DNA from: Gemmatales bacterium | GTDB lineage: Bacteria; Planctomycetota; Planctomycetia; Gemmatales; HRBIN36 | Reading direction: 5' to 3' | DNA length: 32,320 nt | Assembly: GCA_025055835.1 (NCBI GenBank) | Contig: JANWWR010000055.1 | Span: 1-32,320, forward strand | Shown: positions 446 through 14,918 of the stretch, piece by piece | Position numbering within the stretch: the first letter of the stretch is position 1 | Layout of the letters: each line of letters opens with the position of its first letter | Notes under the pieces: generated by a model | The model's input: the letters and a program-made list of their open reading frames with translations, nothing else | What the model was told of the DNA's origin: nothing | The model's database searches: none | Position numbers and translations under genes: made by a program

Positions 446-1204
446 CTACTTGTTGAGCTTGAATTCGATGCGGCCCAGATCGGTCACACCGCCAGGTTTG
501 ACCTCGATGGGCATGCCGCGCGCCCCCTCTCGACCGCCGCTGTATCCCGTCTCATGCCAGATGGCCAGGTTCCATTTGCCGGCCGGAGCGTTCTTGATCT
601 CGAAATTGCCGTCCTCATCCGTCACCGCAAAGTAGGGATGGTCGAAGATCCAGCAGTAGCCGGTCATCCACATGTGGATGCCGCAGGAGAACTTGACCGC
701 GTTGCGTTCCGGCTCCAGTTGCAGCCGTTCTTCCTTGCCGGCGGGGATGGTCAGGTTCTTGTCGTTCTTGAAACCAGCGATGACGATGTTGTGCGTGATC
801 GGAGACGAGTTCTTGGCGACGAGAATCTGATCGGCCCGAATGCCGAGGACGTGCGGCTCGAAGGCACAGCGCGGCTGGTCAACCACGACCTCTTTCTGGG
901 CCGGTTCTTTGAGGCTGGGATGGATCGGCAGCTTCTGCGTGCCTTCCGGCTTGAGGAAGACCATGACCCAGCGGATGCCTTTGTTCTTGGGGTTGACGAC
1001 CCACTTTTCGCTGTAGATCGGCCCTTTCTCGAGGCAGTGGGGCTGGTCCTTGTCCACGTTCAGCGGTTCACGGGCCGGTGGATCGCCGGGATAAACGATC
1101 TGGCCCTTGATCGTGCCCCATTCCTGGGCCCAGGCGGGAGTGACGGCGACCAGCAAACCGAGCAGGGCCAGGGAAATCAACGTCAAGGGGGGATGTCGCA
1201 TCAT
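446..1204 (-). CDS. Exported cupredoxin-like protein
   Basis: This 252-residue protein has a signal peptide (about residues 1-26, ending AWA-QE). Residues 28-115 look like a beta-sandwich segment. A cupredoxin-like part follows, with His138 (in THN) and then Cys174, His177 and Met180 in CGIHMWM. That spacing, H...C-x2-H-x2-M, is the type 1 copper pattern of plastocyanin/pseudoazurin-like proteins. The C-terminal 70 residues (TDEDGNFEI, PAGKWNL) resemble a carboxypeptidase-regulatory-like beta domain. The start ATG at 1204 overlaps the stop of the octahaem cytochrome gene (ATGA) and has AAGGAG 7 bases upstream; a second ATG follows directly. Position and ligands suggest a periplasmic electron acceptor for the cytochrome complex. 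Copper binding is inferred from motif alone. Confidence 0.85.
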   Translation of the reverse strand: MMRHPPLTLISLALLGLLVAVTPAWAQEWGTIKGQIVYPGDPPAREPLNVDKDQPHCLEKGPIYSEKWVVNPKNKGIRWVMVFLKPEGTQKLPIHPSLKEPAQKEVVVDQPRCAFEPHVLGIRADQILVAKNSSPITHNIVIAGFKNDKNLTIPAGKEERLQLEPERNAVKFSCGIHMWMTGYCWIFDHPYFAVTDEDGNFEIKNAPAGKWNLAIWHETGYSGGREGARGMPIEVKPGGVTDLGRIEFKLNK

Positions 1205-4200
1205 CTCTGTTCTCCTTGCGGTGTCTGGATGCGTGGACCGGCGGCACGGGCCGTCGGAGGCGGGTCAACGAGGTAGCCCCAGCTCATCAGCGCGTCACGC
1301 ACAGCCCGGGTCTTGTCGGCGGGCAGCGTGGCGAACTGTAGCTGAAGCTGATTATACGCCTCGTCGGTGATTACGAACGGAGCACGCTGGACGGTTTGCG
1401 AGCCGAGCAACGGTCCCAGCTCGATCAACCGCCGCGCCTCCGGTCGCTGGAGGGCCTGCTGAAGATGGTAGTATTCCGGTCCCGGAGCGTAGAACGGATC
1501 GTACTGCGGCATCAGTGTGTAAGGAATGAGCCGCTTCGGGAAGGATACCCAGCGCTCGATGTACTCAGGCCGCAGACGATCGGCGGCGAGATGGAGCGGC
1601 GGTCCTTTCTCTTCGTCCTTGCCTCCGGCCTTGTAATTGCCGATGTTGTGGCATTTCACGCACAGGTTTTCGTTGACCAGCAACTGCCAGCCGCTCTCGA
1701 AGTAGTCCTGCTTACTCGCATCAAAGCCCGGAGCGCTCCTCATGTACCCGGCGATGCGGGCCTGATACTGACGGCGCAACTGCTCCTGGTAGGCGGGATC
1801 GCGCTGCGGAGGCGATCTGCCGAAGTATTCCAGCCCCAGAGCGGGATTCTCGATCCGATCCACCGCGACGAAATAATGCACCAAGGCTTCCAGGTCTTCG
1901 TGGCTCAGGGTGAAGCGCGGCATCTTGAGGTTGGCGGCCACGGTCGGCCGGATTTCGTGCGGTTGCTTCAGGAAATCGTAGAGCCATTGCGGCTGGACCT
2001 TTTGGCCTTCCCGCATCAGCGGCGGGGGGACCGATCCGGCCAGGAAGCCGCGGTCAAGTACCAGATTCTTCCGCTGCGTCTCGGCCAGGACGTGCATGAG
2101 GATGTTGGCGTACAGCCCACCATAGGTCCCATGCTGATGCTTGAGCGCTTCCACGGGAATCTGGATGCGGCTTAATCCCGCGGGGAAGTCCTGATAGATG
2201 CCGTCGGCATCCATGAAGCGGATCGCTTCCCACAGTTCGATGTTGATGCTCTCCTCGTCCTCGCCGGGCAGCGGCAGTCCGCGGGCAATCAGGCGGCCGT
2301 TCGGAGCCACCGTCTGAGCGCGCCAGGCGGAATGTTCAGCAAACGTGGGGTCACGGGCCAACTCCGTGACGCTCTCGGTTCGGCTGTGATAGCGGCGAAG
2401 CTGGGCGAGCAGGTCCTCGGTCAGCACGGCGTCGAAGTAGGCCGGCTTGGCGATGTGGCAGCCGGTGCAATTGAACTTCTCAAGCACCTGCATCCCGGCC
2501 ACCTCGTGGCGGCGGTCCTCCCGCATGGTGTTGACGAACTTCATCGGGATCGGCTCGGCCACCAGACCGAGGACAAAGGTCATGACCGCTTCGATGTTGT
2601 CGTGCTCCTCCTTGGCGGCCCGAGCGGCGAAATCCTCGGGGCTTTCGCCCTTGTTCGGCTTGATGCGGGAGAACTTGAACTGGGGCATCTTGAGCCGGTC
2701 GTCCCAGGGCCGGGTCGGAATCTTGGCGTAGTCGTAGCTCCGGGGTTCCCGCAGCTTCTGGTACAGGAAGCCGATCCGGGTGTGATGCTTGAGGGCGTCG
2801 AAGAAGAACGGCTCCATCGTCCACGACGGCTGGGCCTCGGAGGCACTTTCGCCGTGCCCTTCGTCGTGGCCATTGCCATGCCCCTGTTCGCCGTGGGCCA
2901 GCCGATAGCGCTCGACGTAGTCGAGGATGTTGTCGAAGGCGAGCCGGTCCGGGTCCTTCTTGCCCCAGTCGTTGATCGGGGTACCGATGGGCTTGGCGTT
3001 CTCGAAGCCGGGGATGTCGTGGCAGGCAAAGCAGCCATAGCGGGCGATGCTCTTGCGGCCGACGTAGTAGGTCAGCTTCTGATCGTGGGTCCAGCCGTGG
3101 AATGGCGAATCCGTCGGCGGGTTCTTGGCCAGAACCCGCTCATCGGCATCAAGCCGCAGGCCGGACACATCAGCCAGCCCCTCGTTGAGCGCTTGTTCGG
3201 CTTCAGTCCGCGGGAGGGCCTTGTCAAGATACGTCTTGGCCAGGCCGCGGATGTCGCCTTCCGTCACCCGTACTTCGCTCCAGGCCAATTGGCCCTCCTG
3301 CGGCGGCAGTGGGGCGACGTTGCCCGCGCCGGTCAGCAGCCAGGCGACGAGGTCCGCTCGCTGCTGCGGGGTTAACTGCGGATTGGGCATATTGGTCCGC
3401 GGGTGATAGCGGGTCGGATCGCTGAGCCAGTAGTAGAGCCACTTCTCGGCCCGCTGCGGGTTGTCGTCATAGCCCAGCTTTTCCCGCAGACCGATGAGAT
3501 TCGGGCCGTAATCGGCCTGGGTCAGCAGTACGCCCTTGTCATCATAAATCTTCACCGCCTCATGGCTGTGACAAGCCGCGCAGCCGTGCTTCTGGAACAA
3601 CAGTCCGCCGTTGGTGGCGTTCGGCTGGTAGGCCAACTTGCCGTCCTTGTCAGCCAACTCACCGGGCGGGTAAGGCAGTTCCTCGAGCGTCTTGCCGTAT
3701 TTGCGGTAACGAATTTGCTCGGCGAACCAGCCCAGGACCAGTTGCAATTGGTCCTTGGTGAGGCATTCCCGCGTCGGCTCCTCGGCCAGACGTTGTTCGA
3801 AGGTGAGATTCGGCTTGCCGGCGGGAAGTTTTGCCAGGATGGCCGGCGAGGTGTCGCGGGGGAGCTTGGGATGATTCTGGTTCGGCACCAACTGCGGATT
3901 GAGCTTCCGCTGTTCGCTCAGTCGCACGAAATCCTGATAGGTCCGCTCAAACTGCGACCAGGCGGCATCGTCCATGCTGTGGACCTGCTTGACCTGGGCC
4001 AGATGAATCTGGCTGGCTTTCAGCAGGTAGAAGGTCATCGAGTGAATCTCGGCATCCGGGAAGCCCTTCTGATCGTCGCCGATCTGGCTCGGTCCGTTGG
4101 GCTGGGTGTCGGAGAGTTGCTCGGGATTGTTGTTGGTCAATCCGAAGAAGTGCGGCATCTGGGTGTCGTAGCGGAACGACCGCGGAGAGCGGATCCAGCG

Positions 4201-5703
4201 GGCCGTCCAATCCGCGCCATTCTTCTCGCCGACTTTCTCGGCCAGCCGACGCAGGCCGGGGCCGACCTTGCGGAGCTTGCCCGGCGGGTCGTTGGGATCG
4301 CTGGTCAGATTGGCCCGCTCCAGCGGCGTCAGATCGTCTAACGGCGGGTAGGGTTCCAGCCGCATGTCGGGACCGATGGGCCGACCGCCCTTGTATCCCT
4401 GAATCTCATGACATCCGAAGCAGCCCAGATCGCGGACTAGCCGATAGCCCTTGATGAGCTTGGGGGCTTCCTCGCGGCCATCCGTCTTGACGAGATCGAG
4501 TATCTGATGATGGCACTTGACGCAGGAGGATTCGAGGAAGCGCCGCGGCAGCATGGGGTGGTCCCACATGTAGTCGGGATGCAGGTCGTGATGCCAATTG
4601 CGATCCTTCTGCCAGCGGGCTTTCATCTCCTCGTAGGTTTCCACGTCCTTGCCGTTGGTCTTGCCCGTGTCCGGGGAGTGGTAGGCGAAGCTGAACGTGG
4701 CCGCTCCACCCATGCCGCTGTGGCAGATGGTGCAGCCAAACTTCTCGACCGGGTGCGGACTGTTCGACCCGACGTAGAGGTCGAGCCGGGGATGGTTGCA
4801 ATAGACGTTGAACTCGCCGAGCTTGGGTCTGAGGTTTTCGGGCAGACCGGCCAGGGTTTCCTTGTCGAAACCGAGCCGGTCGCTGAACATGTGGCAGGTC
4901 ATGCAGCGGTCGTTGCGCTGCACCTGCTTGAAGTTGTAGTCGATGGTCAGGCCTTCGGGGATGTCCTGGCGGATGCGGAAGGGGGAAGCGAAGGCGTCCA
5001 GAATGGGCAAGGCCCGGATTCGCGCGCCCCAGCCGAAACTCTTTTGCCGGGCCGTCCGCATGAGCCGGTCCCGCTCCCGCACCAGGCGGTCGAGGTCGGC
5101 CACGGCGAGGCTGACGGCCCGCAGTTGATCCTCGATTTCCTGCTCCCGCTGGGCGGCCCGTTTCGCCAAGTCCTCGACCCCGCCCGGTCCCTTCTCCAAG
5201 GCCCAGATTTCATCGTTCATGGCCTGCACGCGGGCTTCCAGTTCGGCAATCACCAGCGGCGGCGCGCCTCGCTCCAGCAACTGGTCGCGCTGGCTGATGA
5301 TCGAATCCCGCACCGCCTTCATGGCCGAAACGCGTTCGGACAGGACGACGAATTCGGAGTCCGGCGGGAGCTGGGTCCGATTCTGAATCGCCTGCTTGGC
5401 GGCGGCCAGCAGTTCGTCGTCACTGAGCGAGGGCGAGACGCCAAGCTCGGATTTGGCTAGTTCTTCCCGCAGCCGAGCGGCGGCGTGCTCGATCTGCGTG
5501 GCGTTTTCCTCGGTGAGACGCTTCGCCTGGTCTTCCAGGACCGCCACTTCGATGTCGAAACCCTTCCGTTGGACGCTCTTGAACGGCCGGTTGTAATCCA
5601 CCCAGAACATCCAGATGAGGCTCAGAAGCATGACGATGGAGGACACCGCGAACACGATGTCCAACATCTTCTGATCGCGATAGGTTTCGTCTCTGGCAGC
5701 CAT
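1201..5703 (-). CDS. Membrane-anchored octahaem c-type cytochrome, 1500 residues
   Basis: There are eight CxxCH haem c motifs, beginning at residues 267, 324, 394, 428, 708, 891, 1079 and 1348. The N-terminus has one transmembrane helix (about 14-36) and then a charged, Glu/Arg/Gln-rich segment (about 47-220) that should form a coiled coil. The haem region is therefore held outside the cytoplasmic membrane. Between haems 6 and 7 is a His/Gly-rich insert (about 937-953). The final haem lies in a separate C-terminal cytochrome domain. The gene is 72 bases downstream of the subunit-IV-like gene, and its TGA overlaps the start of the cupredoxin-like gene. This makes it the likely c-haem subunit of the Rieske/cytochrome b complex, taking the place of cytochrome f or c1. 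The family looks planctomycete-specific; the exact electron path is inferred. Confidence 0.9.
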   Translation of the reverse strand: MAARDETYRDQKMLDIVFAVSSIVMLLSLIWMFWVDYNRPFKSVQRKGFDIEVAVLEDQAKRLTEENATQIEHAAARLREELAKSELGVSPSLSDDELLAAAKQAIQNRTQLPPDSEFVVLSERVSAMKAVRDSIISQRDQLLERGAPPLVIAELEARVQAMNDEIWALEKGPGGVEDLAKRAAQREQEIEDQLRAVSLAVADLDRLVRERDRLMRTARQKSFGWGARIRALPILDAFASPFRIRQDIPEGLTIDYNFKQVQRNDRCMTCHMFSDRLGFDKETLAGLPENLRPKLGEFNVYCNHPRLDLYVGSNSPHPVEKFGCTICHSGMGGAATFSFAYHSPDTGKTNGKDVETYEEMKARWQKDRNWHHDLHPDYMWDHPMLPRRFLESSCVKCHHQILDLVKTDGREEAPKLIKGYRLVRDLGCFGCHEIQGYKGGRPIGPDMRLEPYPPLDDLTPLERANLTSDPNDPPGKLRKVGPGLRRLAEKVGEKNGADWTARWIRSPRSFRYDTQMPHFFGLTNNNPEQLSDTQPNGPSQIGDDQKGFPDAEIHSMTFYLLKASQIHLAQVKQVHSMDDAAWSQFERTYQDFVRLSEQRKLNPQLVPNQNHPKLPRDTSPAILAKLPAGKPNLTFEQRLAEEPTRECLTKDQLQLVLGWFAEQIRYRKYGKTLEELPYPPGELADKDGKLAYQPNATNGGLLFQKHGCAACHSHEAVKIYDDKGVLLTQADYGPNLIGLREKLGYDDNPQRAEKWLYYWLSDPTRYHPRTNMPNPQLTPQQRADLVAWLLTGAGNVAPLPPQEGQLAWSEVRVTEGDIRGLAKTYLDKALPRTEAEQALNEGLADVSGLRLDADERVLAKNPPTDSPFHGWTHDQKLTYYVGRKSIARYGCFACHDIPGFENAKPIGTPINDWGKKDPDRLAFDNILDYVERYRLAHGEQGHGNGHDEGHGESASEAQPSWTMEPFFFDALKHHTRIGFLYQKLREPRSYDYAKIPTRPWDDRLKMPQFKFSRIKPNKGESPEDFAARAAKEEHDNIEAVMTFVLGLVAEPIPMKFVNTMREDRRHEVAGMQVLEKFNCTGCHIAKPAYFDAVLTEDLLAQLRRYHSRTESVTELARDPTFAEHSAWRAQTVAPNGRLIARGLPLPGEDEESINIELWEAIRFMDADGIYQDFPAGLSRIQIPVEALKHQHGTYGGLYANILMHVLAETQRKNLVLDRGFLAGSVPPPLMREGQKVQPQWLYDFLKQPHEIRPTVAANLKMPRFTLSHEDLEALVHYFVAVDRIENPALGLEYFGRSPPQRDPAYQEQLRRQYQARIAGYMRSAPGFDASKQDYFESGWQLLVNENLCVKCHNIGNYKAGGKDEEKGPPLHLAADRLRPEYIERWVSFPKRLIPYTLMPQYDPFYAPGPEYYHLQQALQRPEARRLIELGPLLGSQTVQRAPFVITDEAYNQLQLQFATLPADKTRAVRDALMSWGYLVDPPPTARAAGPRIQTPQGEQR

Positions 5704-5775
5704 CTTGCACCCTTCGCTTCTCGGCCTTGGATGGGGAACGCGTCCTGATCCCCCTTCCGGGGCCGCGATTGCCGC

Positions 5776-7359
5776 TTAGATGTTGAAGAAGAACTCCGGA
5801 ATGGCCACGATGTACTTCAGGTTGATCGTCCACCGCAGCACCATCTTGATGGGCAGGCTCGCCATGAACAACAGAATGATGATCATGGTCATGTAGCGGA
5901 TGAAGCCCATGCGGAGATAGAAGCTGCGGAAGATCGTCTTGGCCAGCACCGGCGGCAGAATCATGAAGTAGCCCAGCACCAGCAGGATGCCGGGCAGTTC
6001 CCGCATCAGGATTGTCAGAAAGCCGCTGAGGGACTGCGGATCGTTGGTCGCCCAGATGATCCCCAGGCCGCGAACCCAGAAATAGTCCGAAAGATTGACG
6101 TTGTTGAGCGGCACGAGCTTGTGCGGGTCCCACGGCTCATACAGGCCGAAGAAGTTCCAGTTGGGACCGCGTAGAAACGTGCCGAGGAAAATCAATGTCA
6201 CCCACAAGACAATGAACCCGAACAGCCAGACCACGATGGCAAAGGGGCGCTCCTCGAACGTGAAGTAGCCGTTGCCCTTTTGGTTGAAGTCGATGTACGG
6301 CATGGCCATGAGGCCGAGGATGATAAGCGTCGGCAGCACGACACCAGCCAGCCACGGGTCGTAGTACACGAGCATTTCCTGGAGTCCGAGGAAGTACCAC
6401 GGGGCCTTCGACGGGTTGGGCGTCCGGGTGCTGCTGGCGGGTTGTTCCAGCGGAGCAGGCAAAGCGACGGCCCAGACGATCAGCACGATCGTGACCACGA
6501 CCATGCAGATGAGTTCCGTGTACACCAGGTCCGGCCAGACGAGGACTTTGTCTTCCTCCTCCTTCTCCGCCGGGGGCAGGCCCTGCTTGCGACGCTCATC
6601 GTTGATGACCGCCTTGCGGAAGGCCAGCCAGGTGAAAAAGCCGACGACAAAGACCAGACCGACGATCGGCACGTTGTCCGGCTTGATGATGATCGTGCGG
6701 AAGTCGTAGTCGGTCATGCTCAGGCCGCCGAACAGCAAAGCGGCGTTGAAGATGCCCCAGATCACCATCGGCTTGGTGAGCGTCTTCCGCCACACAAGAA
6801 AAGCCATGAAGCCGACGATGGAGGCCACGAAGTAGCTGATCGCGTTGGTGCCGAAAAGGATCAGACCCAAGAGCGCAATGACTACCAGCTCCGCGGTGAT
6901 GCGGCTGAGAGGTTCCCGAAGCCAGCCGCCATTGCCGTTGCCTCGGTTGTTGGCATTTCCGCCGCCGTTGCCATTCGCCGACGAAGCCCGGAGGAAATAC
7001 GAGTAGATGATGTCCCCGGCGAGGACGAAGCACATCAGAATCAGCAGGCCCAGGCCGACGTAGAAGACCCCATCCGCCGCCGTCCCCACCACGCCGAAGT
7101 GCATCAGCGACCGGACGATGCCGTGGTCGCTGAGGTCCTTGTACCAGATGGGCAACTTGACCCAGGGAACGTGGGCGAGGTTGAGCAGAGCCAGCACGGC
7201 GAAGACGCCGCCGACCACCGGCCAGACGAAACCCTGGAGTTTGTCCTTGAACTTGTAATAGGCCAAGGCCCCGTAAGCCAGATTCGCCAGTGCGGCCAAG
7301 CCGTAGTACCCGGCCAATCCGTTCTGGACCGCCGGGGTCAAATCCTGTCCGCCGACCAT
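5776..7359 (-). CDS. Cytochrome b C-terminal half (subunit-IV-like) with extra membrane N-terminus
   Basis: This is a 527-residue polytopic protein. Residues 273-400 align by eye with cytochrome b6f subunit IV/cytochrome b C-terminal half: WPDLVY, helix E (about 278-303), the quinol-site motif, helix F (333-357) and helix G (371-396). Two further helices (about 452-477 and 488-510) resemble the longer bc1-type C-terminus. The Qo motif PEWY reads APWY here (319-322), so the usual glutamate is absent. In front is an unusual 250-residue extension with about seven hydrophobic helices, split by an Asn/Gly-rich linker (126-146). The ATG at 7359 has AGGAGAAGG upstream. It lies between the b6-type gene and the octahaem cytochrome gene. 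Confidence 0.88.
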   Translation of the reverse strand: MVGGQDLTPAVQNGLAGYYGLAALANLAYGALAYYKFKDKLQGFVWPVVGGVFAVLALLNLAHVPWVKLPIWYKDLSDHGIVRSLMHFGVVGTAADGVFYVGLGLLILMCFVLAGDIIYSYFLRASSANGNGGGNANNRGNGNGGWLREPLSRITAELVVIALLGLILFGTNAISYFVASIVGFMAFLVWRKTLTKPMVIWGIFNAALLFGGLSMTDYDFRTIIIKPDNVPIVGLVFVVGFFTWLAFRKAVINDERRKQGLPPAEKEEEDKVLVWPDLVYTELICMVVVTIVLIVWAVALPAPLEQPASSTRTPNPSKAPWYFLGLQEMLVYYDPWLAGVVLPTLIILGLMAMPYIDFNQKGNGYFTFEERPFAIVVWLFGFIVLWVTLIFLGTFLRGPNWNFFGLYEPWDPHKLVPLNNVNLSDYFWVRGLGIIWATNDPQSLSGFLTILMRELPGILLVLGYFMILPPVLAKTIFRSFYLRMGFIRYMTMIIILLFMASLPIKMVLRWTINLKYIVAIPEFFFNI

Positions 7360-7451
7360 GAGGAACCTTCTCCTGAATCAGCCCTCGCCTCTGCCCCTCA
7401 CTCGCCGGGAGGAAAAGCGGGAGAACTGTCTTCCCCAAAGCGCCAGAACCA

Positions 7452-8225
7452 TCACAGCGGCCCGCTGATTCCGCCGTCCTTGCGGACTCGCCAGAAGTGG
7501 ATGGCGATCAGCAGGGCGACGGCCAGCGGCAGGGCGATGCAGTGCAGGACGTAGAACCGCAGCAACGTCATCTCGCCGACGAACCGCTGTCCCAAGAGGG
7601 CGAACCGGGCGTCGCTGCCAGAATGGATCAACTCCACGCCGCCAATGACGAGCAGCTTCGCTCCCGGTCCTTCGTGGCCCAGCAGCGGCGTGGCTCGGGC
7701 CATGTTGCTGCCGACGGTGATCGCCCAGATCGCCAGCTGGTCCCACGGCAGCAGGTAGCCGGTGAAGCTCAGCAGCAGGGTCAGGACCAGCAGAATCACG
7801 CCCACGACCCAATTGAACTCGCGCGGCGGCTTGTAGCTCCCAGTCAGGAAGACGCGGTACATGTGCAGCCAGATGGTGATGACCATCGCATGGGCCCCCC
7901 AGCGGTGCAGTTCGCGGAGGACGCCCAGCGTCGTCACCTGGCCGAGCGTGACGATGTCGTTGTAGGCGTGTTCCAGCGTAGGCCGATAGTAGAACATCAG
8001 CAGCACGCCGGTCACGGTTTCGACCAGAAACAGGAAAAACGTGATGCCTCCCATGCACCAGGTGTAGCTCAGGGCGATGCCTTGTTTGCGAATGGAAACC
8101 GGGTGCAGGTGAAGGAAGAAGTTGGTCAGCATCACCACCACGCGGTTGCGGCGGTCCTTGGGGGCCGGGTGGCGGAAGATGCTTTTCCAGACCTGGCTGT
8201 TGCGAATGAAGTCGCCGACGGACAT
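7452..8225 (-). CDS. Cytochrome b6-type protein (petB-like) with haem ci cysteine
   Basis: This is a 257-residue, four-helix di-haem cytochrome b. The b-haem ligands are visible as His107/His121 (HRWGAH...WLH) and His228/His243. The 15-residue step in the second pair is the b6 spacing rather than the bc1 one. Cys57 in WCMGGITFF matches the cysteine of b6 that covalently holds haem ci (cn). FYYRPT, the LPWDQ turn and the C-terminal GISGPL are also b6-like. Its role is quinol oxidation and cross-membrane electron transfer together with the Rieske and subunit-IV-like proteins. The ATG at 8225 has GGAGAG just upstream. Family assignment is firm; the presence of haem ci is inferred from the cysteine. 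Confidence 0.95.
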
Positions 8226-8333
8226 GCCCTCTCCGTTTCACTCTCGCTGGTGCCTTATCCGGTTCAGCCGAACCGGGTCGGGATCACCCGACGCAGCTCC
8301 GAGGGGTTCCCGATCCGGACACCGCCTGCGATG

Positions 8334-8933
8334 TCACAGGGTGATCGAGGCGTCCGGGTCGTTCCACTGGCCAAGTTCCTTCTGGAACTTTCTGCTTTTG
8401 TCCACCACGATCTGCCCGTCGTCGCCGATGCTGATCTTGTAGCGTTCCAGCGGTCGGGGAGCCGGGCCTTCGAAGTTGACGCCGTCCTTGTAGAAGCCGC
8501 TGCCGTGGCAGGGGCATTTGAATTTCTGCTCGTTTTCCAGCCAGTTCGGCGTGCAGCCCAGATGGGTGCAGACGGTGCTGAGGGCGAAAATCTGATTGTC
8601 GATGCGGACGATCCACACGCCGTATTCCTGCTTGTAGCGTTCGACGACGACGCCCGGCTCGTACTGCTCCGGCGTGCCGGCCTTGAAGGTGCTGGGGGGT
8701 TCCGCCACGACGTTGGGAAACAGGAAGCGGACGGTGCCCAGGGTCATCGCCGCCATCGAGACGGTAAAAGCGGCCCAGGCCGCTCCGAACCAGGTGGCGA
8801 AGATGGTGTAGAAGAAGCCGCGGCGGTCGCTGCCGGGCTTGGCGGCCGGTTTCGCCGGGGCCGGTTTGCTGCCCAGCGGCGGCATCGCGGAAGGACCTGT
8901 CGCCGGGGCCGTCGGGGGTGTCGGCTCTGCCAT
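8334..8933 (-). CDS. Rieske [2Fe-2S] protein of the cytochrome b complex
   Basis: This is a 199-residue protein with both Rieske boxes: CTHLGC (Cys122, His124, Cys127) and CPCHGS (Cys140, Cys142, His143). By family rule Cys122/Cys140 and His124/His143 bind the cluster and Cys127/Cys142 form the disulfide. The N-terminus is a Pro/Ala-rich stretch, then a twin-arginine-like SDRRGFF and one transmembrane helix (about 41-70), fitting Tat insertion with the cluster domain outside. I chose ATG 8933 over an in-frame TTG at 8978, because 8933 starts directly before the Pro/Ala-rich region and the TTG has no support. It is the first gene of the operon and takes electrons from quinol. Confidence 0.95.
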   Translation of the reverse strand: MAEPTPPTAPATGPSAMPPLGSKPAPAKPAAKPGSDRRGFFYTIFATWFGAAWAAFTVSMAAMTLGTVRFLFPNVVAEPPSTFKAGTPEQYEPGVVVERYKQEYGVWIVRIDNQIFALSTVCTHLGCTPNWLENEQKFKCPCHGSGFYKDGVNFEGPAPRPLERYKISIGDDGQIVVDKSRKFQKELGQWNDPDASITL

Positions 8934-8990
8934 GTCAGCTTTCTTGCGTTGAAGATTCCCCTCGGAATGTCCTAGCAACCACGGAGTATG

Positions 8991-10396: not shown

Positions 10397-11776
10397 TCAC
10401 CACAGCCAGACGATCCGGGCATAGAAGCCGTCGAGGCTCAGATCGTTGTGGGTGACGACGCGCGGCGTGGACAAAGCGTCCACGGAGGAAGTCGCGCCCT
10501 GCCAGACATAGGTGAACTCGTAACCGCCGCCGAACTGGAGCCGACCGTTCCACACCGTCACCTCGGCACCGGCGGCCAGTTCCAGCACCGGCACGATCTC
10601 CTCGCGGCTGTAGCTGACGAAGGAGATGTTGTTGATGCCGCCCAAACCGGTTTCGACGAGCAGCGAGTCGTCGTTGCGGTGGGTCAGCAGCAGGCTGCCG
10701 AAGCTGCGGCCGTAGAGATTGAGCCAGGGGAAGATGTAGCAGCGAGCCTCGCCGCCCATGCGGGGACCCATGCCGCGGGTGTTGATGGTCAGGTTCTCGC
10801 CCTGGATGACGCCGCCCGAGGACGAGGCGTCCACCGTGGTGCGATAGTCCTGATCCATCCACAACAGCTTCAGACCGCCGCCCGCGACCAGGTCGAGATA
10901 GTTGGTCGGGCTGAAGACGCCGCCGAAGAAGATGTCCACGGAGCGGAACTGGAGGTTCCAACTGCTGATGATGAAGCCCGGCTGTGCCAACGTCGAGTTG
11001 AGCAGCTGGCCCGGGCCAACGTAGGTCAGCGAGAAGGCACCCGTGGGATCGGGATTGAAATAGATCTGGTCGGACAGGTTGTCCGTGAACTGCATGTAGG
11101 TGGCCAGGAACAACCAGCCGCCCTCGGTCAGCCATCCGCCGCCGACGCGATAGGCGTATTCATGATCGGCGTCGTAACCGATCAAGGAATTGAAGCTGGT
11201 GATGTCCTCGGTCAACTGAGCCTGAATGACCGGGTCGCGCCGGCTGGCTCGCAGGAACAGGAACTCGCCGATCCACAGCGGACCGCACTCGTTGCATGGA
11301 CCGCAATCGGGCTGGGGAGGCAGCGGCGGACAGGGGACCGGAGCCATCGGCACGGCCGCGCCTGGAGGCATGCAGCCCGGGGCGACCGCCATCGGATGAC
11401 CCGCCGGAGCGGGCTGGACGACCGTGGCCGGTTTGTCGTCGCTGAAGTTCCGCGGCATGGCGGCATACGGAGCCGGCCGAGCCGCGAACTGGCTCGTCGG
11501 AGCGGGACGCTTGAAGTCCCCGATGGCCTGCGTCTGCACGATTCCCGAGGCGGAATCGGTTTCGGCCACAGGCGTGGTCTTCGGAGCCGGGGGCAGCGGC
11601 GGCACGACCGGCAACAGACCGTCCGGTTCCGGCCGCTCCATCGCAGGCCGCTGCACGTTTGCCACGCCGGGGTTGTTCTTGTCCGGCTCACTGGCCGCCG
11701 GCAGGGTGTCCTGAGCGAAGCTGCTTGCCGGCCAGCCCAGCGCCCCAGCCAGCACGAGCGAAGTCCATCTACGCAT
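10397..11776 (-). CDS. BBP7-like outer-membrane beta-barrel protein
   Basis: This is a 459-residue protein with a signal peptide (1-21, ending SSFA-Q) and a long Pro/Ala-rich, probably disordered region (about 30-160) with a CGPCNECGP motif at its end. About 290 residues of alternating hydrophobic/polar strands follow (GGGWLTEGGW, RSVDIFFGG, LQFGGGYEFTYVW), ending in an aromatic residue (YARIVWLW) as outer-membrane barrels do. This matches the planctomycete BBP7 porin-like family by general appearance. ATG 11776 is chosen because GGAGAGG lies 7-8 bases upstream and the signal peptide begins there; the open frame extends a further 102 codons upstream without signal-like sequence. The transported substrate is unknown. 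Confidence 0.8.
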   Translation of the reverse strand: MRRWTSLVLAGALGWPASSFAQDTLPAASEPDKNNPGVANVQRPAMERPEPDGLLPVVPPLPPAPKTTPVAETDSASGIVQTQAIGDFKRPAPTSQFAARPAPYAAMPRNFSDDKPATVVQPAPAGHPMAVAPGCMPPGAAVPMAPVPCPPLPPQPDCGPCNECGPLWIGEFLFLRASRRDPVIQAQLTEDITSFNSLIGYDADHEYAYRVGGGWLTEGGWLFLATYMQFTDNLSDQIYFNPDPTGAFSLTYVGPGQLLNSTLAQPGFIISSWNLQFRSVDIFFGGVFSPTNYLDLVAGGGLKLLWMDQDYRTTVDASSSGGVIQGENLTINTRGMGPRMGGEARCYIFPWLNLYGRSFGSLLLTHRNDDSLLVETGLGGINNISFVSYSREEIVPVLELAAGAEVTVWNGRLQFGGGYEFTYVWQGATSSVDALSTPRVVTHNDLSLDGFYARIVWLW

Positions 11777-12156
11777 TGATCGCCTCTCCTTCAGGCGCCC
11801 CAAAACCACGGCCCCTGCCGTCGGCTTGGACGCGACCAGAACAGTTTTTCTCCGGGCCAAATCTCCGGCCGCTGTGCGGGCGCTCGACGCCCACTTGCCG
11901 GTAGTATCGGCAAAATCCTCACCCGCCTTGAAACCGTTATGCAAAGAAAACTCGTCCCAGATTCTCCAGGCGGGGAATCCGTCTCTGCCCATCTTGCCAG
12001 GATGCCGCTTCGGCCCCACGACCTCGGCTCCGTCCGCACGTTTCGTCGCTTCTCCCGTCCGCCTCGTCTTCCATCGTCCCATCCTTCCGCTGTACGATGA
12101 ACGTGCAGGACCGCGATCGGGCTGCCTATTCGCTGTTCGCCTTCGCCAAGGATCCC
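11777..12156. other. Divergent intergenic region
   Basis: 380 bases between the barrel gene (minus) and the AAA+ gene (plus). It must hold promoters for both directions, but I see no convincing -35/-10 pair, hairpin or repeat. An alternative AAA+ start (ATG 12097) would shorten it. Confidence 0.5.
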
Positions 12157-13176
12157 ATGACCCCTTTGGATTCCCACCTAGAAACGCCGCTGCCCGAGCA
12201 ACTGGCCCAGGTCCGCCAGCGCTTGCGGGAACGCTACCGCCTGGATCGCTTCATCGCCTCCGATCCCGCCATGATGCGGGTCCTGGATCAGGCGCGGCTG
12301 GCGGCGGCGGTGCCCGTGCCGATCTCCCTGGTCGGCGAAGTTGGCACCGGCAGACGCCACCTGATCCGCTGCATTCACCATCTGTCCGCTGAATCCGACC
12401 GGCCCTGCGTCTTCCTGGAATGCTCTCTGTTGCCGGAGGCGCATCTGGAGCGGCAGCTTTCCGAGGGGCAGCTGCTGGGTCCGCCGGATTCCGCCTCCGC
12501 GGGATGGGGAACGCTGGCAATCGTCGATCCCGCCGCCTTGCCCCGAGAGCTGCAACAGCGGTTGCTGGCGTTTCTCGAAAGCAAGGCCCCGAGCGACCGT
12601 CGCCGTCTGGCGGTCATCTGCGATCAGCCGTTGACATGGTTATGTCAAAACCAGGGACTCCTGCCGGCGCTGGCGGAACGCCTCGGCGTTCTGGTCATCA
12701 CCCTGCCGCCGCTGCGGGAACGGCCCCAGGATATTCCGCTTCTGGCTCAGCACGCCCTCGAACTCTGCAATCTGGAAAGCGACCGGCGCATCACCACGAT
12801 CCAGGAAGCGGCGCTGGACCAGTTCCGGGCCTACTCCTGGCCGGGCAACGTGGGACAGCTCATCGAGTTTGTCCGGGAAGCTCATCGCCGGGCCGAGGGG
12901 GCGGAACTGCGGGTCGAGGATCTGCCTCTGGTCGTCCGCCTGGCCGGGCAGCCCAATCCGCCCCGCCGACCCCTGCCGTTGCCTTTGGATGCCCTCTTGG
13001 AAGCGGTGGAAATGCGGCTTCTCCGCCTGGCTTGGGAGGAAGCGGGCGGAAATGCATCCCGAGCCGCGGCTCGGCTGGGGATTACTCCGGCCCGGCTGAA
13101 TCGGCGTTTGATCCACTTCGGGCTTCGCCAGCCACCCAACCGCGACCATTCAGAAGCCGATGCCGCCGAGGGGTGA
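12157..13176 (+). CDS. Degenerate sigma-54-activator-like AAA+ protein with Fis-type HTH
   Basis: This is a 339-residue protein. The AAA+ core covers about residues 30-265: Walker A GEVGTGRR (60-67), with Arg where the catalytic Lys belongs; a Walker-B-like strand GTLAIVDP (118-125), where the usual DE is DP; then PPLRERPQDIP and YSWPGNV, which are classic for NtrC-type activators. The GAFTGA loop that contacts sigma-54 is absent: the segment expected to hold it (about 101-117) reads through LLGPPDSASAG. The C-terminus (about 278-322) is a Fis-type helix-turn-helix (GGNASRAAARLGI). It probably binds DNA but probably does not activate sigma-54 by ATP hydrolysis. ATG 12157 has AAGGA upstream; ATG 12097 is an alternative without Shine-Dalgarno. 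It is the first gene of a three-gene operon. Confidence 0.8.
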   Translation: MTPLDSHLETPLPEQLAQVRQRLRERYRLDRFIASDPAMMRVLDQARLAAAVPVPISLVGEVGTGRRHLIRCIHHLSAESDRPCVFLECSLLPEAHLERQLSEGQLLGPPDSASAGWGTLAIVDPAALPRELQQRLLAFLESKAPSDRRRLAVICDQPLTWLCQNQGLLPALAERLGVLVITLPPLRERPQDIPLLAQHALELCNLESDRRITTIQEAALDQFRAYSWPGNVGQLIEFVREAHRRAEGAELRVEDLPLVVRLAGQPNPPRRPLPLPLDALLEAVEMRLLRLAWEEAGGNASRAAARLGITPARLNRRLIHFGLRQPPNRDHSEADAAEG

Positions 13177-13177
13177 A

Positions 13178-13564
13178 ATGTTCTGCACGAACGTCCTCGT
13201 CATGGAACCCGGCAGCGAAATCGCGGATTTCCTGGCCGTCTCGTTTCCCGAGCGGTCCTGGATCCTTGGCGGCGTTCGCAATCTGGAAGAACTGCGAAAA
13301 TCGCTGGCGCAGACCGGCCCGGGCCTGACGGTGTCGCTGTGGCAGCCGCGCTTCTGGCCCCTTTTCGAATGGCTGGCGGCACACCGACCCGAAGTGCCGG
13401 TCGTGCTCTTGTCCGATGCTTGGCCGAATGGCTTGCATCTCCACCTGCAAAGCCTGGGAACCCTGGCCTGTCTGCGCTGGCCCAAGGACAAACCGCTGCT
13501 GGCCGAGACGGTCCAGCGCTTCGTCCAGGCCCGTCAGTCCCCGACCGCGATCCGTCTGGCATGA
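13178..13564 (+). CDS. Small protein with receiver-like fold lacking the phospho-acceptor
   Basis: This is a 128-residue cytoplasmic protein of unknown function. The pattern of strands and helices resembles a response-regulator receiver: VLVMEPG as strand 1, VSLWQPRFWP as strand 3, VPVVLLSDA as strand 4, and CLRWPKDKPLLAETVQRFV as the strand 5/last helix region. The acidic pair after strand 1 and the acceptor Asp after strand 3 are missing, so phosphorylation would not be expected. The ATG at 13178 lies one base after the AAA+ stop and has GAGGGG upstream. Its stop overlaps the ferredoxin start (ATGA), so the three genes are translationally coupled. The receiver assignment is an inference from pattern. 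Confidence 0.65.
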   Translation: MFCTNVLVMEPGSEIADFLAVSFPERSWILGGVRNLEELRKSLAQTGPGLTVSLWQPRFWPLFEWLAAHRPEVPVVLLSDAWPNGLHLHLQSLGTLACLRWPKDKPLLAETVQRFVQARQSPTAIRLA

Positions 13565-13767
13565 ACGATTTCCGCGAATTGCCCGTGGTTGATTCCCGAC
13601 GCTGCACCGGATGCGGCGACTGTGTCCGCGTCTGCCCCGTGGACTGCCTCGGGTTGAATTGGGACCTGCCCTACCTGGAACATCCCCGCCGGTGTATCAG
13701 TTGCGCTGTGTGCGTCGAGCTGTGTCCCGAGGACGCGCTCCAGTTGGCCTCACGCTGGTGCGGGTAG
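13561..13767 (+). CDS. Small 2x[4Fe-4S] ferredoxin
   Basis: This is a 68-residue protein almost entirely made of two cluster-binding motifs: CTGCGDCVRVCP and CISCAVCVELCP, each CxxCxxCxxxCP, the bacterial 8Fe-8S ferredoxin pattern. The start ATG overlaps the stop of the receiver-like gene. A short ferredoxin as last gene behind an AAA+/HTH protein is unusual. It could supply electrons to an unseen enzyme or give the regulator pair a redox input; the sequence does not decide. The gene is followed by a bidirectional hairpin. Confidence 0.9.
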   Translation: MNDFRELPVVDSRRCTGCGDCVRVCPVDCLGLNWDLPYLEHPRRCISCAVCVELCPEDALQLASRWCG

Positions 13768-13808
13768 ATCTGGGGCCGGTGATGTGTTGGAATTGCCGGC
13801 GAAAACAA

Positions 13809-13834
13809 GAGAGGTTCCCCTGGGGGAACCTCTC
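13809..13834. terminator. Bidirectional hairpin terminator
   Basis: The inverted repeat GAGAGGTTCCCC / GGGGAACCTCTC is separated by TG (effective loop CTGG) and lies between the convergent ferredoxin and TIGR03000 genes. On the minus strand the stem is followed by TTGTTTTC, fitting an intrinsic terminator for the 13878-14507 gene. Confidence 0.75.
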
Positions 13835-13877
13835 GAATGGTCGAGGAGTCGGCAGAACGAGGCGGCAGCGGCTTGTT

Positions 13878-14507
13878 CTACTTGGAGGCGGCAGCCGTGG
13901 CCGTGCCGGTCGGGGTCGAGAAGCTGACTCGGGCTTCCTGACCGGCCCGGACGATGAGTTTCCTGCTTTCAGTCACGGTCTGGCCTTCCCGTTCCATCTC
14001 GACCTTGACCATGTAGTAATAGTCTTTGCCCTGCTCCAGGGCCGGGGTGACGAACACTCGCTCCGACTTTCCCGTGTTGGCGGTGAGCATGTCGTCGATG
14101 TAGAGCTTGGCCTCGGCCGGGGCCTCGATGACGACCTTGGCCTGCGGGCTGCCCTGAGTTCCCGCCGGCTTGGGTTGCGGTGCCTGCTGAGGAGCCGGCT
14201 GCGGAGCGCTGTGAGCGGGCTGGACGATCACGCCGCCGCAGCAGCCGTGGCAGCCATAGCAACCGTGGCAGGCGTAGCAGCCATAGCCGCCGTAGCAGGC
14301 GCAGCTATACCAGGCACAGCTATGGCAGCCGTAGCATCCGCACCAGGAGTAGCAGCCGCAATACGAATAGCATCCACACCACGAATAGCAGCCGCACCAG
14401 CCGCAGCTATAGCAGCCGCAGTAGCTGTAACAGCCGCACCGATGCCAGCAATGGGCCGGCACCGTCGCCTGACCGCTGAGCGCGGCGGCAAGCACAAGAC
14501 TGTACAT
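13878..14507 (-). CDS. TIGR03000-type protein with Cys/Gly/Tyr-rich repeat region
   Basis: This is a 209-residue protein. The first 14-18 residues are a short hydrophobic signal-like start. Residues 20-90 are a repeat tract built of CGCYSYCGCYSW-like units with about 24 cysteines. A Pro/Gln/Ala linker follows. Residues about 125-200 match the planctomycete TIGR03000 domain (AKLYIDD, tTGKSERVFVTPALEQGKDYYYMVKVE, RAGQEARVSF). The ATG at 14507 has AAAGGAG 8 bases upstream, better than an in-frame codon at 14537. The TIGR03000 domain has no known function. The Cys tract could crosslink through disulfides in the envelope or bind metal; this is inference. A promoter candidate lies at 14611-14639. 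Confidence 0.85.
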   Translation of the reverse strand: MYSLVLAAALSGQATVPAHCWHRCGCYSYCGCYSCGWCGCYSWCGCYSYCGCYSWCGCYGCHSCAWYSCACYGGYGCYACHGCYGCHGCCGGVIVQPAHSAPQPAPQQAPQPKPAGTQGSPQAKVVIEAPAEAKLYIDDMLTANTGKSERVFVTPALEQGKDYYYMVKVEMEREGQTVTESRKLIVRAGQEARVSFSTPTGTATAAASK

Positions 14508-14918
14508 GCAAGGCACTCCTTTCTGGTAGCACCACAACGTCTCTTCCTCGGGAAGCCTGGACCTCCCGGCGCTGGTTTCTAACTTGGCGAACTAGGAAGA
14601 ACCGGCTGGAATGGTAAACTCAGCCAATTTTGGGGTCAACCAAATTCCGCAGTTTTTCTCATTTCCCAAGATTGCACAGCCGACACGATCGTAATCTGGC
14701 AAAAATCTGGAAAATGCAGAACATGGTGCAATTATTCACCCTCGACTTGCCTGTGTACAGAAGTTCCGATCTGGTATAAGAGCTAGTCGCTTCTGCTATG
14801 AAGAAGGCCTCATCCCATTCGCCGCCAGGGTTGGCCTTACATGAAACGCGGTTCTCCGTTACAGTCCGACGACTTCCGTTGGGAAAAACATTGCGCAAAA
14901 AAATGCGGGAGCCGTCTC
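14508..14918. other. AT-richer divergent intergenic region
   Basis: 411 bases between the TIGR03000 gene (minus) and the HEAT-repeat gene (plus), clearly more AT-rich than its surroundings around 14580-14810. It holds the minus-strand promoter candidate at 14611-14639. A TGGTATAAG extended -10-like string near 14772-14780 could serve the plus-strand gene, but its upstream -35 spacing is poor. No RNA gene or riboswitch was recognised. Confidence 0.5.
14611..14639 (-). promoter_or_regulatory. Putative sigma-70-type promoter for the TIGR03000 gene
   Basis: On the minus strand, TTGACC (14639-14634), a 17-base spacer and TACCAT (14616-14611). It predicts a leader of about 100 bases before ATG 14507. 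Pattern match only. Confidence 0.4.

Follow-up and report, generated by a model that had tools for sequence, protein, structure and literature searches.

What could three consecutive genes do together when two of them encode signalling proteins that have lost the residues typical of their kind, and the third encodes a small Fe-S protein? The set may be a decaying remnant, a regulatory unit that works without phosphorylation, or a means of setting the production of the Fe-S protein itself. Enhancer-binding proteins that lack the GAFTGA motif are known to work at sigma70 promoters without ATP hydrolysis (PMC10274813), and pseudo-receivers have been found to be controlled by partner contact, by ligands such as quinones, or by redox-driven dimerisation; the 2025 review that records this calls their switching on and off a mystery (PMC12632262). 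A recent sigma54 survey retained only GAFTGA-bearing proteins (PMC12316311), a filter through which a GAFTGA-less clade such as the one described here would be missed. We refer to the whole stretch of DNA analysed, 32,320 nucleotides from a Gemmatales bacterium, as the window.

Results

Arrangement, conservation and selection

All three genes were found where the earlier note on this DNA had placed them, with the following features:

12157–13176, plus strand: gene A, 339-aa degenerate sigma54-activator-type AAA+ protein with a C-terminal Fis-type helix-turn-helix (HTH)
12334–12357, plus strand: Walker A site GEVGTGRR of gene A, Lys replaced by Arg
12523–12528, plus strand: Walker B site of gene A, Val-Asp instead of Asp-Glu
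12715–12951, plus strand: AAA+ lid domain (AAA_lid_14) of gene A, Pfam E 4.1e-17
12997–13110, plus strand: Fis-type HTH (HTH_8) of gene A, E 6.9e-6, above the Pfam cut-off
13178–13564, plus strand: gene B, 128-aa stand-alone pseudo-receiver, a receiver fold without phospho-acceptor Asp, acid pair and Lys
13561–13767, plus strand: gene C, 68-aa predicted 2[4Fe-4S] ferredoxin, its start overlapping the stop of B (ATGA)
13603–13647, plus strand: first cluster motif CTGCGDCVRVCPVDC of gene C, including an extra (ninth) Cys
13693–13725, plus strand: second cluster motif CISCAVCVELC of gene C

Overlapping starts had been read as a sign of coupling. This is true of B and C, which share 4 nt (ATGA, 13561–13564), but between A and B, taking 13178 as the start of B, there is a gap of 1 nt; an in-frame ATG further upstream, at 13160, would overlap A.

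Gene B is present in 71 of 102 genomes of the order (E below 1e-12), the main family of B-bearing genomes being Gemmataceae, including Gemmata; outside the order, in a sample of the phylum, its profile gave values of 8e-8 or weaker, the same level as ordinary response regulators. Among 45 B-bearing genomes, C lies within 400 nt downstream of B in 40 and is absent or not directly downstream in five, and A lies within 400 nt upstream in 33, within about 1 kb in 35, and at 2.0 kb in one more. In some genomes A is far from the other two, and B and C stay joined where A has moved. Across the 61 genomes sampled the co-occurrence of A and B is perfect, A being present in 45/45 genomes with B and in 0/16 without it (profile scores reach 258 bits or more, PAS region included, where A is present, and 204 bits or less, that region not being covered, where it is absent). 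Unlinked genes elsewhere would have spoken against a unit; in most genomes the genes are linked.

Between the window genome and a congener, Nei-Gojobori (NG86) dN/dS was 0.22/1.18 (about 0.19) for A, 0.37/2.19 (about 0.17, dS being saturated) for B, and 0.17/1.11 or 0.12/1.03 (0.11–0.15) for C, values that show purifying selection on genes that have been kept working. Together with the conservation of the arrangement across the order, these low ratios argue that the triplet is more than chance. A recent mobile or viral origin was rejected, B having no match in plasmids or viral contigs. An apparent second triplet in the congener G001 was likewise set aside: B/C pieces that match in all but a few residues lie at the end of contig C14 and the start of contig C18, for which an assembly break or strain variant is likelier than a second copy.

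Alignments of the regions upstream of A and B, inspected also for inverted repeats, yielded no convincing common operator site, and an Rfam scan of 11000–14600 matched no conserved RNA element. Other neighbours of the triplet are not widely shared. On the minus strand, a Cys/Gly/Tyr-rich repeat protein adjoins it (13878–14537), and G038 and G047 have a similar protein close to their own triplets; also on the minus strand, 3 kb upstream, lies a cluster encoding a cytochrome b/Rieske-type complex, a 1500-aa multihaem protein and a plastocyanin-like protein (446–8978), which is not conserved as a neighbour. Some 138 bases (11707–11844) around the start of a divergent BBP7-like outer-membrane gene have an identical counterpart in G001, where the flanks of this segment, single copy in both genomes, are only 65–93% identical.

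Gene A: old and recent losses in an activator-type AAA+ protein

The Sigma54_activat model matches A at 1e-10, and PF00158, PF14532 and PF25601 all exceed their Pfam cut-offs, indicating that the sigma54-activator AAA+ fold and lid are present. The AlphaFold model, searched with Foldseek, is of the ZraR/NtrC1/NtrX type (ZraR match, E 1.2e-16); VpsR is among the matches, and NifA matches in both structure and sequence. The earlier note held that the Walker A Lys, the Walker B acid pair and GAFTGA had been lost and the Fis HTH kept. The Lys is indeed replaced by Arg (GEVGTGR), and the GAFTGA loop is deleted while HTH_8 scores above cut-off; in Walker B (LAIVDP) the first Asp is gone, but the Glu has become Asp, so that the pair is damaged and one acid stays. 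Window A thus has Arg and Val-Asp where ATP hydrolysis calls for the Walker A Lys and the Walker B Asp-Glu, and its deleted L1 loop beside a retained HTH is the mark of GAFTGA-less, sigma54-independent enhancer-binding proteins. As sigma54 is encoded in the window genome, the loss of contact with it is not due to a missing factor.

Alignment of 42 A orthologs from Gemmatales separates these losses by age. The sigma54-contact motif GAFTGA that defines sigma54-dependent enhancer-binding proteins is absent from 42/42, the Walker B Asp has been lost in 41 (one keeps it) and the first Arg finger in 41, so that no close relative carries a full set of intact AAA+ motifs; these three losses are old and shared by the whole family. 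The Walker A Lys is kept in 37/42, and its loss is therefore a late, local step. The motif loss is specific to A: in 15 enhancer-binding paralogs drawn from the window genome and related ones, Lys, acid pair and first finger are all intact and the loop reads GAFTGA or nearly so. In the tree, A orthologs form a single clade against these paralogs with 100/100 support.

Gemmataceae orthologs of A carry an N-terminal PAS domain. The window genus has no sensory domain left in A, having lost PAS and, along with it, the Walker A Lys; the sensor II Arg is a further loss. A probably descends from a PAS-type enhancer-binding protein and not from a response regulator. The proposal that the unit was rebuilt from a two-component system consequently stands in part: it is a conserved unit of degenerate signalling components, one unlikely to act as a sigma54 activator, and such a source fits B, but not A, since PAS survives in Gemmataceae. 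The best PDB matches of these PAS domains (L003, L028 and others) are LOV domains, and an invariant Cys in a ten-row alignment lines up with the LOV photoactive Cys; an identity as LOV photoreceptor was nevertheless rejected, because the flanking Gln and the Asn of the LOV matches, which are flavin-contact residues, are not conserved.

Gene B: a stand-alone pseudo-receiver

Window B has no match in Pfam, and Response_reg (PF00072) falls below the cut-off even on the best B homolog; the B profile finds weak matches to receivers in the PDB. The AlphaFold model (pLDDT 86, pTM 0.80) has the (beta-alpha)5 receiver fold, and its top Foldseek match is the pseudo-receiver TadZ (4lda, E 1.8e-5, TM 0.70), in keeping with the earlier description of a receiver-like protein of 128 residues without its Asp. 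Residues were judged by alignment with seven true receivers of the same group. None of the 22 aligned homologs retains the phospho-acceptor Asp, the acid pair or the Lys: the phospho-Asp is gone in every sequence, the acid-pair position mostly holds Glu followed by a non-acid, and the Lys position holds Pro or other residues. The Thr/Ser position, often kept, is the sole receiver phosphorylation position so retained. A receiver fold stripped of its phosphotransfer residues makes B a pseudo-receiver, and this loss agrees with the suggestion that control here is not by Asp phosphorylation. B proteins of the Gemmata group (for example L028:1373-1894) have a conserved acidic C-terminal peptide, VIDLADEDxxE, after a proline-rich linker; this peptide is not present in window B.

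Gene C: a predicted two-cluster ferredoxin

Two complete CxxCxxCxxxC motifs and a Fer4_7 match at 1.8e-12 uphold the identification of the third protein as an 8Fe ferredoxin; C is a predicted two-cluster 2[4Fe-4S] protein. All eight cluster ligands are kept in 40/41 homologs, and the ninth Cys, within CPxxC, in 41/41; a Cys at this place lies beside a cluster in Azotobacter ferredoxin I. The LdpA Fe-S Pfam model scores 27.5 bits on C, below its cut-off of 27.6, and C is only 68 aa long, which does not place it in LdpA. The window genome encodes other ferredoxin-domain genes. In one genome (G032), the two cluster motifs of the ferredoxin at L170:3720-3986 are set apart by an inserted stretch that contains an internal repeat (DHSETT...).

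Related loci in two other families

A profile search of the phylum found PAS-bearing, GAFTGA-less homologs of A in two other families of the class, here called f3 and f4. In the tree, the GAFTGA-less A proteins of Gemmatales, f3 and f4 fall on one side of a 100/99 branch and intact proteins on the other. Family f3 has A without B or C; in several of its genomes, these stand-alone, PAS-bearing A genes without GAFTGA (L200–L204) are followed by an acyltransferase-like gene and a gene for an FAD-dependent protein. In 17 of 21 f4 loci, the gene after A is a B-like open frame and the next one encodes an Mrp/NUBPL-type Fe-S carrier ATPase, its Mrp type being given by PF10609 with an N-terminal PF01883. 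Compared as profiles, the f4 B-like and Gemmatales B alignments match at 97.8% probability (E 9e-13); as both are receiver-like, their shared place after A makes a stronger case for common descent. In two lineages, then, an A protein without sigma54 contact and joined to a pseudo-receiver has come to be linked with an Fe-S protein, a ferredoxin in one and a cluster carrier in the other.

Discussion

Relation to known systems

Every part of this operon is of a known kind, and the combination has no published description that we could find: a search of the open-access literature returned no paper describing the triplet. The NtrC proteins of Caulobacter and Rhodobacter capsulatus and VpsR of Vibrio cholerae resemble A in their AAA+ fold, Fis-type HTH and deleted sigma54-contact loop, and act at sigma70 promoters (PMC10274813); unlike them, A has also lost the Walker B Asp and the first Arg finger, its sensory part is PAS or nothing, and its gene is grouped with those of a separate pseudo-receiver and of an Fe-S protein. 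NifL-NifA and other PAS-controlled enhancer-binding systems share the PAS, AAA+ and HTH logic and a redox link, but NifA is a working sigma54 activator. TadZ, FrzS, RitR, HP1021, CikA and KaiA have, like B, a receiver fold without phosphorylation residues, and several are redox- or partner-controlled (PMC12632262); B differs in standing alone and being encoded beside its presumed effector. The pairing of C with B recalls the redox input of the cyanobacterial clock, in which the Fe-S protein LdpA and the pseudo-receivers CikA and KaiA help to read the redox state (PMC5520375, PMC12632262); LdpA, however, is a cyanobacteria-only protein, its Pfam Fe-S model is a generic cluster motif, and there are no clock parts at the triplet. 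Mrp/NUBPL carrier ATPases are the third gene of the f4 operon, the place that ferredoxin takes in Gemmatales.

A proposed mechanism and its rivals

With moderate confidence, we propose that A and B are a phosphorylation-free, sigma54-independent transcription-control pair which the third gene links to Fe-S or redox status. A would bind DNA through its Fis-type HTH, its dead AAA+ domain serving as an oligomerisation scaffold instead of a motor, and, by analogy with the published GAFTGA-less proteins, would regulate sigma70-type promoters without ATP hydrolysis. B, being beyond phosphorylation, would dock on A in trans and switch it by protein contact. C, made in step with A and B, might report redox or cluster state to them as a sensor, or be the main output that they balance. 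A sensor role for C is a reasonable possibility, somewhat short of probable, and we give a role as regulated output the same standing; some other role is rather unlikely. Sensor and output would look alike at the level of sequence, and C could also be an ordinary electron carrier. That an Fe-S signal reaches A and B is what we infer, and redox sensing by the triplet is plausible; it gains weight from the related A–B pair of f4 being joined to a different Fe-S protein, Mrp. The Mrp gene also fits Fe-S genes as the output of A and B, and leans slightly towards Fe-S supply over bulk redox as the subject of control.

The output role shades into a rival explanation that has a real though less than even chance, namely that the Fe-S protein is mere cargo: the signal that A and B follow in setting ferredoxin (or Mrp) production would be a different one, such as a signal that PAS binds, and the Fe-S protein would have no sensing role. 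The third genes are plain Fe-S proteins in both lineages, and the PAS sensor on Gemmataceae A offers such an input; yet the window genus has no PAS, so that the signal must reach A by another route, and the B–C pair holds even in genomes whose A lies elsewhere, not what one would expect if C were simply a target of A. This adjacency could instead mean that B and C are their own redox unit, with B as a receiver-like adaptor to the ferredoxin or to the enzyme that it serves, A being merely the transcription factor of the pathway. The tighter linkage of B to C than of A to B speaks for it, but with A and B co-occurring perfectly, and the A–B pair persisting in f4 with another third gene, we consider it improbable. 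That the window operon is decaying and functionless might be read from the extra losses in the window genus (PAS domain, Walker A Lys, sensor II Arg); with dN/dS of about 0.1–0.2 in all three genes, intact frames and every cluster Cys kept, the chance of this is very slight, and pseudogene decay of the triplet is rejected on the ratios and the frames. Against our reading of A, B and C as one unit stand the five of 45 genomes in which C is missing or not next to B, the genomes with a distant A, and the lack of any clear shared operator in front of A and B; f3, moreover, has A without the other two, implying that A can act alone.

Implications

A broader extension of the proposed pair is more doubtful: that a phosphorylation-free 'two-component' system spans the class Planctomycetia, its members being a non-catalytic enhancer-binding protein and a free pseudo-receiver that would sense the state of Fe-S clusters or redox state by way of their own, replaceable Fe-S partner (ferredoxin in Gemmatales, Mrp in the second family). 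The operon itself puts a stand-alone pseudo-receiver beside its presumed effector and an Fe-S protein, and does so in two lineages whose Fe-S partners differ; how pseudo-receivers are switched can thus be put to a direct test. Many planctomycetes carry this operon of worn-down signalling parts, a dead-motor regulator, a non-phosphorylatable receiver and an Fe-S protein, which together point to a phosphorylation-free Fe-S/redox circuit.
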